Source of the DNA: a virus
Length of the DNA stretch: 43,381 nucleotides
Reading direction: 5' to 3' (one strand)
Virus record (IMG/VR): IMGVR_UViG_3300044986_000091
Location: 1-43,381 of that record
Shown here: piece by piece, positions 1,939 through 24,875 of the stretch
How positions within the stretch are numbered: position 1 is the first letter of the stretch
How the letters are laid out: each line of letters starts with the position of its first letter
Notes under the pieces: generated by a model
Seen by the model: only the letters and a program-made list of their open reading frames with translations
Told to the model about the DNA's origin: nothing
Database searches by the model: none
Made by a program: the position numbers and the translations under genes

Positions 1939-2766
1939 TCACGCCGCGATTTGCGTCCAGTTCGCGCTCTGGGTAGTAGTAATTTCAGACCAATTAGCCG
2001 ACTGCGAATCATTAATCCCAGTCCAGTTGGCGTTTTGATTGGTGTTAATAACGCTCCATATATTGACCGTTCCTACTTCCCCGGTCGCGGATACCCCGCT
2101 GACTATAACATTTGCGCCAGAAGATGTAGTGACGGTTCCTACTGCACCAGAAGCCTCGACTCCGGTGACGAAAACAACAATCTCAAGTAGAACATTAACC
2201 GTGCCAACCGCCCCGGTAGCCTCAACTCCGGTTACAGAAAGAATCTGATCGGTGGCGACAAAAACCGTACCAGTCTGCCCTGTGGCTTCAAGCCCAGTAA
2301 CAGCCAGAACTTGATCGGTAACAACAAATACAGTGCCTAGTTCGCCCGTGGCTGCGAGGCCACTGACAACAATAACTTGGTCTGTAATCGCCTTGGCGGT
2401 GCCAACTTCACCGGTAGCCTCAACCCCGGTAACAGCCAGAACCTGATCCGTGACAACGAATACCGTGCCTACTTCGCCAGTAGCTACAACACCGTTGGCA
2501 AGAATAATGACAGACTGGATGACGGAAACATCGCCAACTTGCCCGGTGGCTTCAAGACCGGTAATAGCAATTACGGCGTTCTGTTCTGCTTTGACAACAA
2601 CATCCCCTACCGCACCTGTTGCAGTAAGGTTTGAGTAGCCCTCTCCCCAGCCTTGATCGCCCCAGCCTACGCCAGAAGCATTCCAGCCTTCAAAGGCTAC
2701 AACAACGTCGTTGACCGAACCCCAACCGGATTCGCCCCAACCGCCTAGCCCCCAGCCTACAGACAC
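1939..2766 (-). CDS. Repeat-rich virion protein (about 24-residue VTGxEATGxVGTV repeats)
   Basis: A 275-residue protein starting at GTG, the only usable start because the protein has no internal Met; AGGA lies 7 bases upstream. The N-terminus has several W-G motifs (GWGLGGWGESGWG). The middle is a tandem array of about eight units following VTGxEATGxVGTVxVxTDQ. The last 45 residues hold three Q(S/N)ANW repeats. This pattern (Trp-Gly head, short beta repeats, Asn-Trp tail) suggests an elongated fibre or decoration protein. Function is inferred from composition and position among fibre genes. Confidence 0.72.
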   Translation of the reverse strand: MSVGWGLGGWGESGWGSVNDVVVAFEGWNASGVGWGDQGWGEGYSNLTATGAVGDVVVKAEQNAVIAITGLEATGQVGDVSVIQSVIILANGVVATGEVGTVFVVTDQVLAVTGVEATGEVGTAKAITDQVIVVSGLAATGELGTVFVVTDQVLAVTGLEATGQTGTVFVATDQILSVTGVEATGAVGTVNVLLEIVVFVTGVEASGAVGTVTTSSGANVIVSGVSATGEVGTVNIWSVINTNQNANWTGINDSQSANWSEITTTQSANWTQIAA

Positions 2767-2778
2767 GTAAGTGTCCTA

Positions 2779-3234
2779 TCAGGCAATACGAAGAATAGCG
2801 GTCGTGGAAGCCGCAGCCGGGAACTGGATGGTGAAGTTACCAGCCGTCGAGGTCTTATCCCCGCCAAATGCCAGAACCGCAACAGCCTTGTTGCCCTGAG
2901 TCTCGTTATAGATCAGAGCGCCGTTCGCCGTAATCGTGGCTGAGTCCCACGTGACATCTGCAAAGTCCAACCAAGCAGTCGTGCTGGTCGAGGTCGGAAC
3001 CTGCGAGATCGTGAGAGTCTTCCCCCCTGCCGCGTAGTTCGTGCCCGAATTAGACACTTCATCCGTAGTGGTATACGCAGTGGTAGCCGCACTTAACGTA
3101 GCCGAAGAAGTGTAAAGGGCAACTTTGAATACATCCGCAGCCGTGGAAGCACGGATGACGCCGGTACCGAAGTTATGGATTCCGTCAAGGATCTCAACCT
3201 TGAACGAAGTCGCCATTGCCTGAGTAATAGCCAT
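2779..3234 (-). CDS. Virion structural protein, function unknown
   Basis: A 151-residue protein with a good ribosome site (AGGAGATTGAA before ATG). It is rich in Thr, Ala and Ser, with alternating hydrophobic strands (FKVALYTSSATL, TAWLDFADVTW, GNFTIQFPAA), consistent with a compact beta-sandwich virion protein. It lies 12 bases upstream of the repeat-rich fibre gene and just after the connector genes. Similar proteins are common next to fibre genes in environmental phages, but I know no defined function. It could be a tail-tip or decoration protein. Confidence 0.7.
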   Translation of the reverse strand: MAITQAMATSFKVEILDGIHNFGTGVIRASTAADVFKVALYTSSATLSAATTAYTTTDEVSNSGTNYAAGGKTLTISQVPTSTSTTAWLDFADVTWDSATITANGALIYNETQGNKAVAVLAFGGDKTSTAGNFTIQFPAAASTTAILRIA

Positions 3235-6558: not shown

Positions 6559-7352
6559 ATGATCCGGCACCTCGTCCGACCTTTCTTGGCAATGCCATCC
6601 GCACGAGAGGAGACCGAGCCACCGCCTGCATACTTTTTCACGCGACCGCCCTTGCGGAACCCGCCTGCCATATCAGCAGCGAGCTTCTCGTCCAACATCT
6701 GCTCAGCCCGTTCACGAAGCCGACGAGGTGAAGTTTCCCGCGCTTTCTCCGCAGCTTCACGAGCCCGATAACGCTCAGAGAACGAGGGAACGTCTTTACG
6801 TGCCAAAATCTTTCCACGCATTTCCGCTGCCTTATCCCCCGTCCTGCGGAACCCCTCTACGGTACGCGCATAGGGTGCGCCTGCTACAGCACCGACTCTG
6901 CCGACACCTGCGGTCATAGCAATGTTCTTGGCATAGTCCCGAGCCTTCGCTGCACGTTCATCCGCAGTCATGCCCGTCTCTTCAGCTTGGCTACGGAAAC
7001 CCGTCGAACGGTCGCCCGGGAGCATCGAACGATTACGCTCCATCGCAGCAGAAGCTCGTTCAGCTTGACCTGCCTGACGCTGTCCCGCATAACGGCGTGG
7101 GCCTTGCGGACCCTTAGTAAACGGCTTAGCAGCTTCAGAAAAACGCACTCCGCGTGATCCCGGCGCTTCCATAAACTCGTCAGCCGTCAATTGTCGTGCC
7201 GGAGTCGCCTTACTTTTTTCACGAAGCTCTTTCAGCAACTTCAGGTTGCCTTCCATCGACTTCGGGCGCTTTTTGTACGCTTCCGGGTCAAGGCGACGGA
7301 TTTCCGCGCCGACTTTGCCGTAGCGTTCTTCATCCGTCATTTGCTTAGCCAT
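6555..7352 (-). CDS. Large basic protein with C-terminal SSRADGIAKKGRT tag
   Basis: 265 residues, very rich in Arg, Lys, Ala and Glu and probably helical or disordered. The middle holds a weakly hydrophobic Ala/Gly stretch (AGVGRVGAVAGAPYARTV). It ends with GGSVSSRADGIAKKGRTR and a short tail. The two genes downstream in coordinate (7352-7777 and 7770-8003) end with the same tag, so the three form a family by C-terminus though their bodies differ. ATG overlaps the preceding stop (TAATG). Role unknown; a virion-associated DNA-binding protein is a guess. Confidence 0.6.
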   Translation of the reverse strand: MAKQMTDEERYGKVGAEIRRLDPEAYKKRPKSMEGNLKLLKELREKSKATPARQLTADEFMEAPGSRGVRFSEAAKPFTKGPQGPRRYAGQRQAGQAERASAAMERNRSMLPGDRSTGFRSQAEETGMTADERAAKARDYAKNIAMTAGVGRVGAVAGAPYARTVEGFRRTGDKAAEMRGKILARKDVPSFSERYRAREAAEKARETSPRRLRERAEQMLDEKLAADMAGGFRKGGRVKKYAGGGSVSSRADGIAKKGRTRCRII

Positions 7353-7777
7353 TACACGAACCTTCCTTTAGTCTTACCTTTCTTGGCAATGCCATCAGCA
7401 CGACGCGAAGCAGAGGTAGCCATACCGCCCTTTGCCATTTTTCGGGTTTTCCCCAAGTTTTTAAGAACGCTTTCAGGAATACCAAAATCCTCACGTTCAT
7501 CTGGGTAACGCTTTACCTTACCGGCAGGATACCGCCGCCTTGGACCGCTACTGGGGGTGTAGTTAGGCTGCCTAAGAGTTTCAAGAGCTTTAAGGTCAGC
7601 TTCAACGTCGGGACTCAGCGGAGGAGACTTAAAATTTCTCTTGGCAGTCCCCGTATCTGATCTACCGCCCATAGCCATCTTCTTGACCCTACCGCCATGA
7701 CGAAACACGCCACGGGCTTTCAGTACATCAGCTTGGGTAATTTCACCATCACCGGTCAGGTCAGGAAATTTAGCCAC
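7352..7777 (-). CDS. Protein with N-terminal EF-hand/dockerin-like loop and C-terminal RADGIAKKGKTKG tag
   Basis: About 141 residues. The N-terminus reads KFPDLTGDGEITQADVL: the D-x-T-x-D-G-x-I-x-x-x-D spacing is that of a calcium-binding EF-hand or dockerin loop. It then becomes basic and Pro-rich, and ends in SASRRADGIAKKGKTKG. GTG at 7777 is preferred over GTG at 7786 because GGTGG lies 5 bases upstream. It overlaps the preceding gene by 8 bases. A calcium-dependent contact with another virion protein is possible. Function unknown. Confidence 0.55.
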   Translation of the reverse strand: MAKFPDLTGDGEITQADVLKARGVFRHGGRVKKMAMGGRSDTGTAKRNFKSPPLSPDVEADLKALETLRQPNYTPSSGPRRRYPAGKVKRYPDEREDFGIPESVLKNLGKTRKMAKGGMATSASRRADGIAKKGKTKGRFV

Positions 7778-8003
7778 AGTACCCACCGCCCATCATCTTG
7801 ACCATTTTGCCTTTGGTTTTGCCCTTTGTAGCAACACCGTCAGCGCGACTGGAAGCCGAGCCGCCCTTGGAATAGGCCATGCCGCCCATCCGCATCTTCT
7901 TCACACCGGCTTCTTTCATTTCATGTTTGATCATGGACTTCGGAGCACCTTTCTTTTTCATAAAGGCGACTTCCTTCTTCATCATTGCCTTGGACTCTTT
8001 CAC
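7770..8003 (-). CDS. Lys/Met-rich small protein with SSRADGVATKGKTKG tag
   Basis: 77 residues. The N-terminal half is Lys- and Met-rich (KAMMKKEVAFMKKKGAP, KSMIKHEMKEAG) and probably helical. The C-terminal part carries the shared tag ASSRADGVATKGKTKGK and ends in MMGGGYCG. The ATG overlaps the previous stop (ATGA). No known domain. Confidence 0.6.
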   Translation of the reverse strand: MKESKAMMKKEVAFMKKKGAPKSMIKHEMKEAGVKKMRMGGMAYSKGGSASSRADGVATKGKTKGKMVKMMGGGYCG

Positions 8004-9389: not shown

Positions 9390-10298
9390 TCAGGACGAAC
9401 CCGGCGAACCGAACATGCCGAGCGGATCCGACCAGCCGAAGCTATAACGCTCGCGGCTCTTGTACCGGACGTTGCCGGTGTCGAAATCTCCGTCCATGCT
9501 GTTCTGGAGCGGGGTACGAACGAAGTGCTTCATGCCGTTCGGAACGTCCGTGGTCAGGAACCACGCATTCGTGTCGGTCAAGAAGTGGTTCACCGTGTAG
9601 CCACCGGGAATCGACCCCATCGCCTTGAGAGCGTTGATGTCGTTATCAGCGGTTGAAACACGGAGTTCCGTATCGAGGAGACGCTTGGCAGTGAACATCA
9701 ATGCCGGGGGCACGATGAGCTTACCGGGCTTCGCCGCGATCAGGAGTCCACGTTCGTCGGTCCAACCAGCGATCTGAATCACCGCCGCCTCAAGCGAAGT
9801 CTCGTTGAGGTCAGAGGCCGTCAGACGGTTGCTGTTGGTGCCGCCCGAAACAAGCGGGTGATCCGCCGCGAACAGAGCCTTGCCGTCGCCACCAACGTAG
9901 CTGGCCGAAAAGCCGTTGTTCAGGACAGACGCCGCCTTGACCTGCTTCGTGTACGCCATCGCTCGGGCGAGCGCCTTGGTGTATCGCTTGGACAGCGAAT
10001 CGTACAGGTTGTCTTCAACCGCCTCTTCCGTGATGGAGAAGCCGAGAGCGATGGTCTCGTGGCTGTAGCGAGCAGTCCACGCTTCCTGTGCGTTGTCATA
10101 CGCAATCGCAGCACCTTCGGCTTTCACCGGAGCGGCGCTGAAACCAGAAAGCTTGGTCTCCTCTTCGAAGGAACGCTCGGAGGTCTCAGTCTCGTAGATC
10201 TCCTTGTGCTCCTCACCATAGGTCTTGTACTCAAGGCCGAACAGGGCGTTCAAACCCGGCAGGAGTTCCTTAAGTAATTGTGCACGTGAAATAGCCAT
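9390..10298 (-). CDS. Major capsid protein (Mu gpT-like fold)
   Basis: 302 residues. The central part (ARYSHETIALGFSITEEAV, EDNLYDSLSKRYTKALARAM, KQVKAASVLNN) is typical of the Mu gpT-type major head subunit family. The middle and end have expected capsid features (LFAADHPLVSGG, PGKLIVPPALMFTAKRLLD, DGDFDTGNVRYKSRERY). The order portal-scaffold-decoration-capsid supports the call. The N-terminal residues 3-22 (ending PGLNALFGL) recur almost unchanged inside the DUF3310 protein at 24309-24875. A strong terminator follows directly. No separate protease gene is apparent. Confidence 0.85.
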   Translation of the reverse strand: MAISRAQLLKELLPGLNALFGLEYKTYGEEHKEIYETETSERSFEEETKLSGFSAAPVKAEGAAIAYDNAQEAWTARYSHETIALGFSITEEAVEDNLYDSLSKRYTKALARAMAYTKQVKAASVLNNGFSASYVGGDGKALFAADHPLVSGGTNSNRLTASDLNETSLEAAVIQIAGWTDERGLLIAAKPGKLIVPPALMFTAKRLLDTELRVSTADNDINALKAMGSIPGGYTVNHFLTDTNAWFLTTDVPNGMKHFVRTPLQNSMDGDFDTGNVRYKSRERYSFGWSDPLGMFGSPGSS

Positions 10299-11450: not shown

Positions 11451-12434
11451 TTAGTTAGTCTCCGATAGTTTCATAAGTTCACGTGCGTACTGTTCGTTGC
11501 TCAGACCCAGTCTTTTGGCGATAGCAACTTGAGTCGGTGTCAGGCGGACCTGACGCGGCGCGGTTCCCCGCGTTACCGGAGCCACTACATTGGCTGGTTT
11601 TGTGCGAGCGGGTTTTTGGGCCTGCTTCGTTTGAGGTCTCTCTTCCTCTTCGGCATCGTCAAATGCTTCAGGAAAGCGTTTCCTCATAGTCTCATCGACT
11701 CGGCGGTAATACTCGTCAGAACGAGGATCTACACCAGACCGGACCAGTTTTTCATGCAGGCCGAGTGCGAGGGCGGTCATCTCCTCGTCTGCGCCAAACC
11801 AAGTATTCTTTTCCCGCCACGTAACGGCTTTTGGGTCCGGCTGTGGTTCAGGAGCAACTTGGGGCGTCGGTACCTGTGGAACTTGTTCTACTCTTCCGGC
11901 GGGCGGTTGTAAAGTGGCCCTAGCAAAGTCCATGCGGGTCAATTTCAGCTTTGCGTCAGTCAAAGCCTCTTGAGCATTGGTAATTTGCTCCGAATCTCCT
12001 GATTCGTACGCCTGCTTGAGTTTGTCTTTAATTGAATTGATTTCAGCGTTGATTGTCAGGGTCGCCTGCTCTCTCAACGCATTCTGTTCAACGTGGACTC
12101 GCTCACGGAGCTTGTTGGCCTCTTCAGCCCGCATCTGGGCAAATTTCAGGGCCTCTTCACGCTCTCTGATCGCTCGCTCTTTCTCGCGGCGCTCATCGTG
12201 ATACACCTTTTTCATCTGAGAAAGGCGCTTTTTAACCTTATCAGAGTACTCCTCAAGGTCGTCGTTATCTAACTCCTCGACGATATCCTTGGGCATCGGA
12301 ACCCGACCCCGGTCTTCTGGCGGGGTGTCGTCTTCTATCTGTACCTCGATAACATCGCTATCTTCTTGATTTTCTTCGGTTTTTTTAGCCTTAATCTCAT
12401 CTGGGAACTTATATTCTTCGCGGTCAACTGCCAT
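11451..12434 (-). CDS. Capsid scaffolding protein
   Basis: 327 residues. The acidic N-terminus (EDSDVIEVQIEDDTPPEDRG) is followed by a long charged coiled coil (about residues 60-160, rich in Glu/Lys/Arg), a Pro/Gln-rich linker (VEQVPQVPTPQVAPEPQP) and a basic C-terminus with VRLTPTQVAIAKRLGLS. This acidic head, coiled coil and basic capsid-binding tail is the classic scaffold design. It lies between portal and capsid genes, where scaffolds are normally found. Confidence 0.8.
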   Translation of the reverse strand: MAVDREEYKFPDEIKAKKTEENQEDSDVIEVQIEDDTPPEDRGRVPMPKDIVEELDNDDLEEYSDKVKKRLSQMKKVYHDERREKERAIREREEALKFAQMRAEEANKLRERVHVEQNALREQATLTINAEINSIKDKLKQAYESGDSEQITNAQEALTDAKLKLTRMDFARATLQPPAGRVEQVPQVPTPQVAPEPQPDPKAVTWREKNTWFGADEEMTALALGLHEKLVRSGVDPRSDEYYRRVDETMRKRFPEAFDDAEEEERPQTKQAQKPARTKPANVVAPVTRGTAPRQVRLTPTQVAIAKRLGLSNEQYARELMKLSETN

Positions 12435-12445
12435 GATGTTTTACC

Positions 12446-12823
12446 TCACGCTCTGCGGATTCCACGGGGGTCTTCGACCACCGCTTCCACCGTATCGTCA
12501 TTAATAATGCGGAACTCCCGACCGTGGATAACCACGCGGGTGCCTGAATAAGGACGGGTCAGAACAAAATCGCCTTCCTTACACCACGGACCGGTGGGGA
12601 ATCGGTTCTCGTCCTTGTAGCAAAGGTTGCCCAATTTGATGACGAACAAGACCACGGTGGTCTGCTCTTCAACTCGCTTGGTGTCCTCGGCTTTGATCAG
12701 TCCCCCCTCAAACTCCTCCTCCACGTGCGGCACGGCGCACAGGATTCGATAGCCTTTGGGTTCTGGCAGGAGTCGAGCCTTTTTGGCTTCCTCCTGCGTC
12801 TTCTCTACGTCGATGCTACTCAT
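12446..12823 (-). CDS. GroES-like co-chaperonin (Cpn10 fold)
   Basis: 125 residues. After a charged N-terminus, GYRILCAVPHVEEEFEGG has the pattern of the GroES first strand and start of the mobile loop, then GGLIKAEDTKRVEEQ, VLFVIKLGNLCY, GPWCKEGDFVLTRPYSG and FRIINDDTVEAVVEDP match the rest of the Cpn10 beta barrel (GD-V--Y-G--V and the INDDxI-like end). Known precedent: T4 gp31 replaces GroES to fold the capsid protein. It sits between the portal and scaffold genes, fitting a role in folding capsid or portal subunits with the host GroEL. Confidence 0.75.
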   Translation of the reverse strand: MSSIDVEKTQEEAKKARLLPEPKGYRILCAVPHVEEEFEGGLIKAEDTKRVEEQTTVVLFVIKLGNLCYKDENRFPTGPWCKEGDFVLTRPYSGTRVVIHGREFRIINDDTVEAVVEDPRGIRRA

Positions 12824-24026: not shown

Positions 24027-24322
24027 CACCCGAGGGGAGAGTCAAGGCCAAGGTTAAGAAAACCTTGACCGAGATGGGGGCGTATTACGCGATGCCTGTG
24101 GCGTCTGGCTATGGACACGCGGGTACGCCCGACTTCCTCGTGTGTTATCGATGCCAGTTCCTTGCCATAGAGACAAAGGCAAAAGGGAATCAGCCCACCG
24201 CCTTGCAAGAGGCAACCATGCAGAGAATACGGGACGCAGGTGGGCGCGTCTTCGTCATTGATGAAACCAACGTAGAGAACCTACGCAAACTGATAGAAGG
24301 AGATTTAAATGAAAGCAAGTGA
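24023..24322 (+). CDS. VRR-NUC domain nuclease
   Basis: 99 residues, the size of a stand-alone VRR-NUC domain. Key features are MPVASGYGHAGTPDFLVCY (active-site Asp37 in PDFL), AIETKAKGNQPTALQ (Glu50, Lys52, Gln62) and GRVFVIDE. VRR-NUC proteins are PD-(D/E)XK nucleases, often structure-specific and Holliday-junction-cutting in phages. ATG overlaps the previous stop; the end overlaps the next gene by 14 bases. It probably acts in recombination or replication intermediate processing. Confidence 0.85.
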   Translation: MTPEGRVKAKVKKTLTEMGAYYAMPVASGYGHAGTPDFLVCYRCQFLAIETKAKGNQPTALQEATMQRIRDAGGRVFVIDETNVENLRKLIEGDLNESK

Positions 24323-24875
24323 CAAGATTCGCCGACTGTTGGCGAAAGGGTTGAACGCCATCGAGATCGCTAAGCGTCTCAAGGTCAAGGCGTCATACGT
24401 CCATACCATCAAGTGGCTCGACAAGAAGGCCAAGGCCAAGCAGAAAGTACAAGTCGAGCGCAGCCATGACCCGAAGGTGGTGAAGGCAGAGAAGAAGTAT
24501 CTGAAGGCTGTCAAGACAAAGAAGCCATCGGAGATCGTCAAGGCCGTGACCGAGATGAAACAGGCGTTGGATGTGATTGAGAAGCCGAAGATTACGCGCA
24601 AAGAATTGCTGGACGAACTCAAGCCGGGATTGAACGCGCTGTTTGGTTTGGACAAGAAAGCGCCCCCTTCCGATCTCGTCAATCACCCACCGCACTACAA
24701 GTCTGGCGGCATCGAGACCATCGATTTCATCGAGGCGAAGGATCTGAACTATCGTCTGGGTAACGTGGTGAAGTACGTGGCACGTGCCGGTAAGAAGGCC
24801 ACCGATCCTGTGCAGGATCTTGAGAAGGCTGCGTGGTACTTGCAGCGTGAGATCGATGCGAGGAAGAACGCGTGA
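24309..24875 (+). CDS. HTH - DUF3310 fusion protein with capsid-like PGLNALFGL segment
   Basis: 188 residues. Residues about 3-40 look like a helix-turn-helix (KIRRLLAKGLNAIEIAKRLK). Residues 95-114 (ITRKELLDEL then KPGLNALFGL) are 15/20 identical to the N-terminus of the major capsid protein of this phage. Residues 122-188 are DUF3310: VNHPPHYKSGGIETIDFIEA, YRLGNVVKYVARAGKK, AAWYLQREIDA. DUF3310 proteins are sometimes annotated as nucleotide kinases, without firm proof I know of. Ribosome site GGAGATTTAA. It ends in a GTGA overlap with the next gene. Confidence 0.8.
   Translation: MKASDKIRRLLAKGLNAIEIAKRLKVKASYVHTIKWLDKKAKAKQKVQVERSHDPKVVKAEKKYLKAVKTKKPSEIVKAVTEMKQALDVIEKPKITRKELLDELKPGLNALFGLDKKAPPSDLVNHPPHYKSGGIETIDFIEAKDLNYRLGNVVKYVARAGKKATDPVQDLEKAAWYLQREIDARKNA

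Follow-up and report, generated by a model that had tools for sequence, protein, structure and literature searches.

The N-terminal arm of a phage major capsid protein (MCP) recurs inside one of the same phage's early proteins, and copies of this short peptide occur on many other small ORFs of related phages. The phage in question is represented by a 43,381-nt viral sequence (IMG/VR record IMGVR_UViG_3300044986_000091), which we refer to at its full length as the window. We tentatively interpret the shared stretch as the MCP arm helix reused as a portable head-docking tag that would bring early proteins to the prohead, a reading whose chances we place slightly short of even.

A capsid arm inside an early protein

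In the early protein (188 aa; 24309–24875, plus strand), a lysine-rich linker joins an HTH-like N-terminal domain to a C-terminal DUF3310 domain, and all three parts are predicted to be helical (AF2). The C-terminal domain is assigned to the DUF3310 family by its profile match to PF11753 (residues 124–179, E 5e-19), which scored 68.5 bits against a curated Pfam cut-off of 24. The 302-aa product of a minus-strand gene (9390–10298) is identified as the MCP from its matches to capsid families (PF25209, E 1e-15; phrog_371) and from a predicted HK97-like fold: its AF2 model, of medium confidence, retrieved HK97-fold capsids in Foldseek (E in the 1e-6 range, TM ~0.4), and the capsid profile gave no match among PDB sequences. 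The source of the shared peptide is the N-terminal arm of this protein (residues 3–25; 10224–10292, minus strand), which is predicted to be helical at residues 5–20 (AF2) and in which R5, L8, L12, P14, G15, L16, A18, F20, G21 and Y24 are invariant across 24 diverse capsids.

As the sequence-only reading of this DNA had proposed, residues 95–114 of the early protein (24591–24650; ITRKELLDELKPGLNALFGL) and residues 3–22 of the MCP (10233–10292, minus strand; ISRAQLLKELLPGLNALFGL) are identical at 15 of 20 positions, and the best local alignment runs even further, to MCP residue 25 and early-protein residue 117 (16/23 identities, 36 bits, pairwise E 2e-7). The copy (residues 95–117; 24591–24659, plus strand) sits in the variable linker between the HTH-like and DUF3310 domains and includes a predicted helix at residues 97–111 (AF2). 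The same reading had held that the DNA is similar across the stretch and that the two proteins do not otherwise resemble each other, and both statements stand: 45 of 66 nucleotides are identical, and a pairwise comparison of both proteins returned no second local alignment beyond the arm segment. When the whole window was searched with the arm 25-mer (tblastn), the DUF3310 site was recovered at E 3.8e-7 and nothing else fell below E 0.17, i.e., the window holds no third copy.

A chance match is ruled out by the pairwise E value, by a search of the phage collection with the 25-mer, which returned related capsids only and no other carriers, and by a scan of 257 Gb of bacterial and archaeal genomes, in which the degenerate motif in its non-capsid form had two matches, both spurious. 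That scan also rules out a motif common in unrelated cellular proteins. The literature searched made no mention of the motif.

Arm and tag could be compared within a genome for the window and for two further contigs, G069 and G074, each of which holds an arm carrier together with a capsid bearing its own arm; the majority of carrier contigs are fragmentary and lack the head region, so that the phage's own capsid is visible only in these three. Synonymous divergence was near saturation (pS 0.56 in the window, 0.64 in G069 and 0.74 in G074) while the peptide was conserved (pN 0.24, 0.19 and 0.08, respectively); in the window, codons differ at 8 of the 15 identical residues. This combination of almost saturated synonymous change and a conserved peptide marks the copies as old and selected at the protein level. 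A recombination remnant, one of the origins suggested earlier, is disfavored by the same pattern and by the three different positions (N-terminal, internal and C-terminal) at which carriers hold the peptide.

The DUF3310 linker as a variable slot

Among relatives of the early protein the linker is a variable slot. Across 60 distinct HTH-DUF3310 proteins, it contained the arm only in 7, a WFG segment of the probable scaffold only in 5, both in 3 (L019, L021 and, judged by its full frame, L023) and neither in 45, leaving 15/60 with a head-derived segment of one or both kinds. The scaffold segment covers ~50 residues of these linkers (KAEAWKERNPWFGVNEQKTAAALAYHDELLNDGIDPTSDEYWDKVD). Absence of the motif from one of the two proteins in related phages, which had been expected to count against a shared function, was seen in part, in the 45 proteins with neither segment and in the 26 contigs described below. 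All 80 nearest capsid relatives (L081–L160) keep the arm at the N-terminus. DUF3310 (PF11753) proteins annotated "nucleotide kinase" have the C-terminal domain in common with the window protein, those of other cultured phages match it mainly over the PF11753 domain, and no arm copy was seen in the DUF3310 proteins of the phage collection.

Among 27 large contigs ascertained by their capsid, a second arm copy outside a capsid ORF was present in the window alone (0/26 for the others), which rules out a tag universal in the clade. Since three quarters of the HTH-DUF3310 relatives (45/60) do without either segment and these 26 contigs lack a second copy, the tag is accessory or optional, lies outside the core DUF3310 function and is absent from most relatives.

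Other modules recur in HTH-DUF3310 linkers (L007, L009, L020, L049 and others), namely KLFVQPQH.., MSVKDRLIKELEAAE, LTDDEIIALFD and TIEEWAGE. For the LTDDEIIALFD, TKLFVQPQH and TIEEWAGE types no clear source was found among the matches listed; such modules may be further docking peptides.

Arm copies on diverse small ORFs

A DNA-pattern search of IMG/VR and a subsequent profile scan revealed the arm in many other small ORFs of a podovirus-like clade, located beside replication genes, which rules out a single freak gene. The arm was N-terminal in L163/L168, L172, L192 and L371, internal in L294/L373, and at or near the C-terminus in the L195 group, L299, the L300 group, the L306 group and L362. 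With the tag masked, the carriers fell into ~10 groups without mutual similarity, except that L172 joins the DUF3310 proteins through its HTH and two L300 families have a common short tail. As the arm copies were found by arm search, the number of these protein contexts is biased towards the arm; the scaffold and control comparisons are affected less. The register of the tag was [IV][TS]R..LL.EL.PGLNALFG.EY or close to it; the search pattern fixed R5, P14, G15, A18, F20 and G21, whose constancy is partly built in, while positions left free by the pattern were also largely retained (E11 in 10/14, E23 in 10/14 and Y24 in 11/14). Carrier charge followed no common trend, L192, L294 and L371 being acidic, and "DNA-binding cargo" is not a common theme.

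On the larger carrier contigs, carriers are surrounded by homologues of window genes from the replication region, among them DUF3310, DNA polymerase and helicase. Satellite hosts, or hosts with a different capsid, are not supported, since replication or head genes typical of the clade itself are present on these contigs, and the window and G069 each encode their own terminase, portal, scaffold and capsid.

In L192, two overlapping small ORFs in different frames (2571–2735 and 2665–2916, plus strand) include, besides the capsid arm, part of the capsid spine helix; they are possibly a shrunken capsid derivative. The 75.6-kb contig G080 has two 303-aa frames with the capsid arm (C1:177–257 and 58168–58248), reflecting either a pair of capsid genes or an assembly that is redundant or chimeric; the second arm match is probably a second capsid-like ORF.

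A probable scaffold and its copied segments

In the window, the head module runs TerL, portal, a GroES-like co-chaperonin (12446–12823, minus strand; PF00166, phrog_3188), a probable scaffold, two small genes and MCP, and the same order of head genes is found in Pelagibacter phage HTVC023P and Planktothrix phage Pag-Yong1. Family profile searches recognized no head protease among the head genes scanned. The probable scaffolding protein (327 aa; 11451–12434, minus strand; phrog_28737, E 1.3e-42) owes its tentative assignment to its position between GroES and MCP in all three phages and to its architecture, i.e., an acidic N-terminus, a charged coiled-coil-like middle, a Pro/Gln-rich linker and a conserved C-terminus. 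Two of its segments have copies in relatives of the window: relatives of KAVTWREKNTWFGADEEMTALALGLHEKLVRSGVDPRSDEYYRRVD (11694–11831, minus strand) fill the DUF3310 linker in other phages, and the C-terminal segment VRLTPTQVAIAKRLGLSNEQYARELMKL (11469–11555, minus strand) recurs on small early proteins.

Every large capsid contig contained one scaffold copy, and in the window a profile scan found the C-terminal segment only in the scaffold itself. Extra copies of this segment were detected by profile search on small ORFs of L343, L172 and L506 and, weakly, L306; at the contig level, small proteins with the segment were present in G069, G047, G052 and, weakly, G055. L343 (G069) has a 60-aa scaffold-tail ORF adjoining a 60-aa arm-carrier gene, L172 (G047) combines arm and scaffold C-terminus in one protein, and L506 (G052) carries the scaffold C-terminus on a 112-aa ORF. 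Extra scaffold C-terminal copies occurred in 4/13 records with an extra arm versus 0/26 large capsid contigs without one (Fisher p 0.009), three of these extra copies having themselves been rows of the search profile.

The adjoining ORFs of L343 (259–441 and 438–620, minus strand; one with the capsid arm, the other with the scaffold C-terminus) and the neighboring ORFs of L306 (541–705 and 977–1198, minus strand; arm and weak scaffold C-terminal match) all encode 54–73 aa with basic leaders. In L506 (3397–4968, minus strand), four small paralogues lie in tandem; they share a C-terminal domain, for which there was no convincing Pfam match, and differ in their N-termini: a scaffold C-terminal segment, an MCP spine segment (E 7e-7, local set), a stretch weakly matching the end of the MCP (MSRYTFGWSDPRTM, E 0.007) and one without a known source. 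In the late region, small window proteins (7352–7786 and 7770–8003, minus strand) and their relatives have short modules in common, an EF-hand-like FPDLTGDGKVTRADVLKGRGV stretch and, at the C-terminus, the motif RADG[IV]A.KGKTKG; across the clade, several of the small late genes contain them.

Copied segments come from capsid and probable scaffold

As a control, 40-residue stretches of nine proteins were compared as profiles with all 69,823 ORFs of 513 sequences. Convincing full ORFs of foreign type were obtained for MCP residues 1–40, the MCP spine, scaffold residues ~180–250 and the scaffold C-terminus, while stretches of portal, TerL, GroES, DNA polymerase and helicase yielded no convincing foreign copies among these ORFs, bar one DNA polymerase fragment; the control loci were partly chosen by the arm, which biases the arm counts and weighs less on the negative result for portal, terminase and polymerase. 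The remaining matches were frameshifted or cut genes and isolated weak ones (L351, L437, L092, L473 and L510). Applied to another 33 genes of the window, this test brought up late-region repeat families, and no further early carriers of head segments were recognized; matches of tail and decoration genes were rejected as carriers because they stem from syntenic genes with conserved N-termini or from late small-gene repeats.

Docking, assembly control and other readings

According to the passages cited, the C-terminal scaffold helices of P22 are anchored at residues D14, E15 and E18 in the N-arm of the coat protein (PMC9965877), the last 16 scaffold residues of 80alpha adjoin the N-arm helix alpha1 (PMC5644958), and the SPP1 MCP N-terminus interacts with the scaffold (PMC6813328). 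In these passages the arm helix is a procapsid docking site of the scaffold, as we propose here; unlike here, they describe the arm in the capsid protein only, with no copies on other proteins. Since the scaffold docks on the MCP arm helix in these three phages, the carriers suggest, by analogy, that both halves of the capsid–scaffold interface have been copied.

The capsid-targeting sequence (CTS) of T4 is N-terminal and is removed by the head protease. It is all that the diverse T4 internal proteins have in common, and it brings them into the prohead core (PMC3012670). Here, too, one short conserved peptide is the sole common feature of diverse small proteins; the clade's tag differs in that it may be N-terminal, internal (as in the window protein) or C-terminal, and in that it is the capsid protein's own arm. 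We favor a docking tag on the strength of scaffold–arm docking in P22, 80alpha and SPP1, the predicted helices of arm and tag, and this T4 precedent. In the prohead, the arm would probably touch the C-terminal part of the scaffold, and early proteins carrying a copy of the arm (or of a scaffold segment) would be drawn to scaffold or shell and enclosed with it, much as the CTS admits T4 internal proteins to the core. The window HTH-DUF3310 protein would then be cargo: synthesized early, it would in part be kept in the head and might be delivered along with the DNA. Of the roles guessed for the peptide from the letters alone, a scaffold-docking peptide or capsid-loading signal fits best, given the many unrelated carriers and the scaffold segments in the same slot, and we infer the scaffold's identity, binding, packaging and delivery; docking to the co-chaperonin found no specific support. 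For the clade as a whole, it is plausible, though somewhat less than an even bet, that both interface sides are reused as interchangeable tags on changing early proteins, either for loading heads with early and host-takeover proteins or for coupling early functions to assembly.

The main rival is assembly control. An arm or scaffold tail on its own might just as well act as an inhibitor or modulator of assembly. Tagged early proteins would compete for the scaffold (arm copies) or for the MCP (scaffold-tail copies), and prohead assembly would be delayed, limited or reshaped, in the phage itself or in co-infecting relatives or satellites. Both interface halves do occur on tiny proteins, sometimes from adjacent genes as in L343, and a precedent exists in SaPI1 CpmB, a small protein that, in the cited account, copies the scaffold C-terminal motif and docks on the capsid protein, N-arm included, in the scaffold's place (PMC5644958); redirection of capsids is common among satellites (PMC10945586). 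L343, L506 and L172 resemble CpmB in carrying the scaffold C-terminus on small proteins. However, CpmB as described there is satellite-encoded, redirects capsid size and copies a scaffold motif, whereas the copies here are located among the early genes of a phage itself, as shown for G069, and the window copies the capsid arm instead. The window arm is moreover embedded in the linker of a larger two-domain protein, which is not a minimal competitor, an early dominant competitor in the phage's own genome seems costly, and no contig was identified as a satellite. We consider assembly control unlikely, if by no means negligible.

A timing switch, in which HTH carriers act early on DNA or RNA and are pulled off as scaffold or capsid accumulates, would make early gene expression or replication responsive to the amount of late protein. 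It agrees with the location of carriers in the early/replication region and with the HTH-like parts of the DUF3310 proteins, L172 (a weak Pfam HTH) and the L300 families (by eye), but these HTH assignments are weak and many carriers have no recognizable DNA-binding part, so that we regard it as improbable. Structural-gene fragments might also have been copied into new small ORFs by illegitimate recombination, with no common function. The tandem paralogues of L506, with their different head-protein N-termini, do resemble repeated fusion; against this, the peptide is conserved despite near-saturated synonymous sites, its register is constant, and the sources are head-assembly segments and not the portal, terminase or replication genes of the same loci, which makes such gene birth quite doubtful. 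Recognition of the peptide by the chaperonin GroEL, acting with the phage GroES, is very improbable despite the GroES-like gene in the head module, as GroEL recognition is loose and directed at exposed hydrophobic segments, the motif is far more specific, and the scaffold segments in the same slot would be left unexplained.

The carriers belong to abundant uncultured phages, and most have no assigned function. If the docking tag loads heads, they would form a readable list of proteins possibly injected or stored in the virion. The clade would then offer a natural case of both sides of the capsid–scaffold interface being reused as portable tags, and capsid engineering would gain a cargo tag that is ready for use; if the tags control assembly instead, these phages would encode CpmB-like regulators of their own heads.
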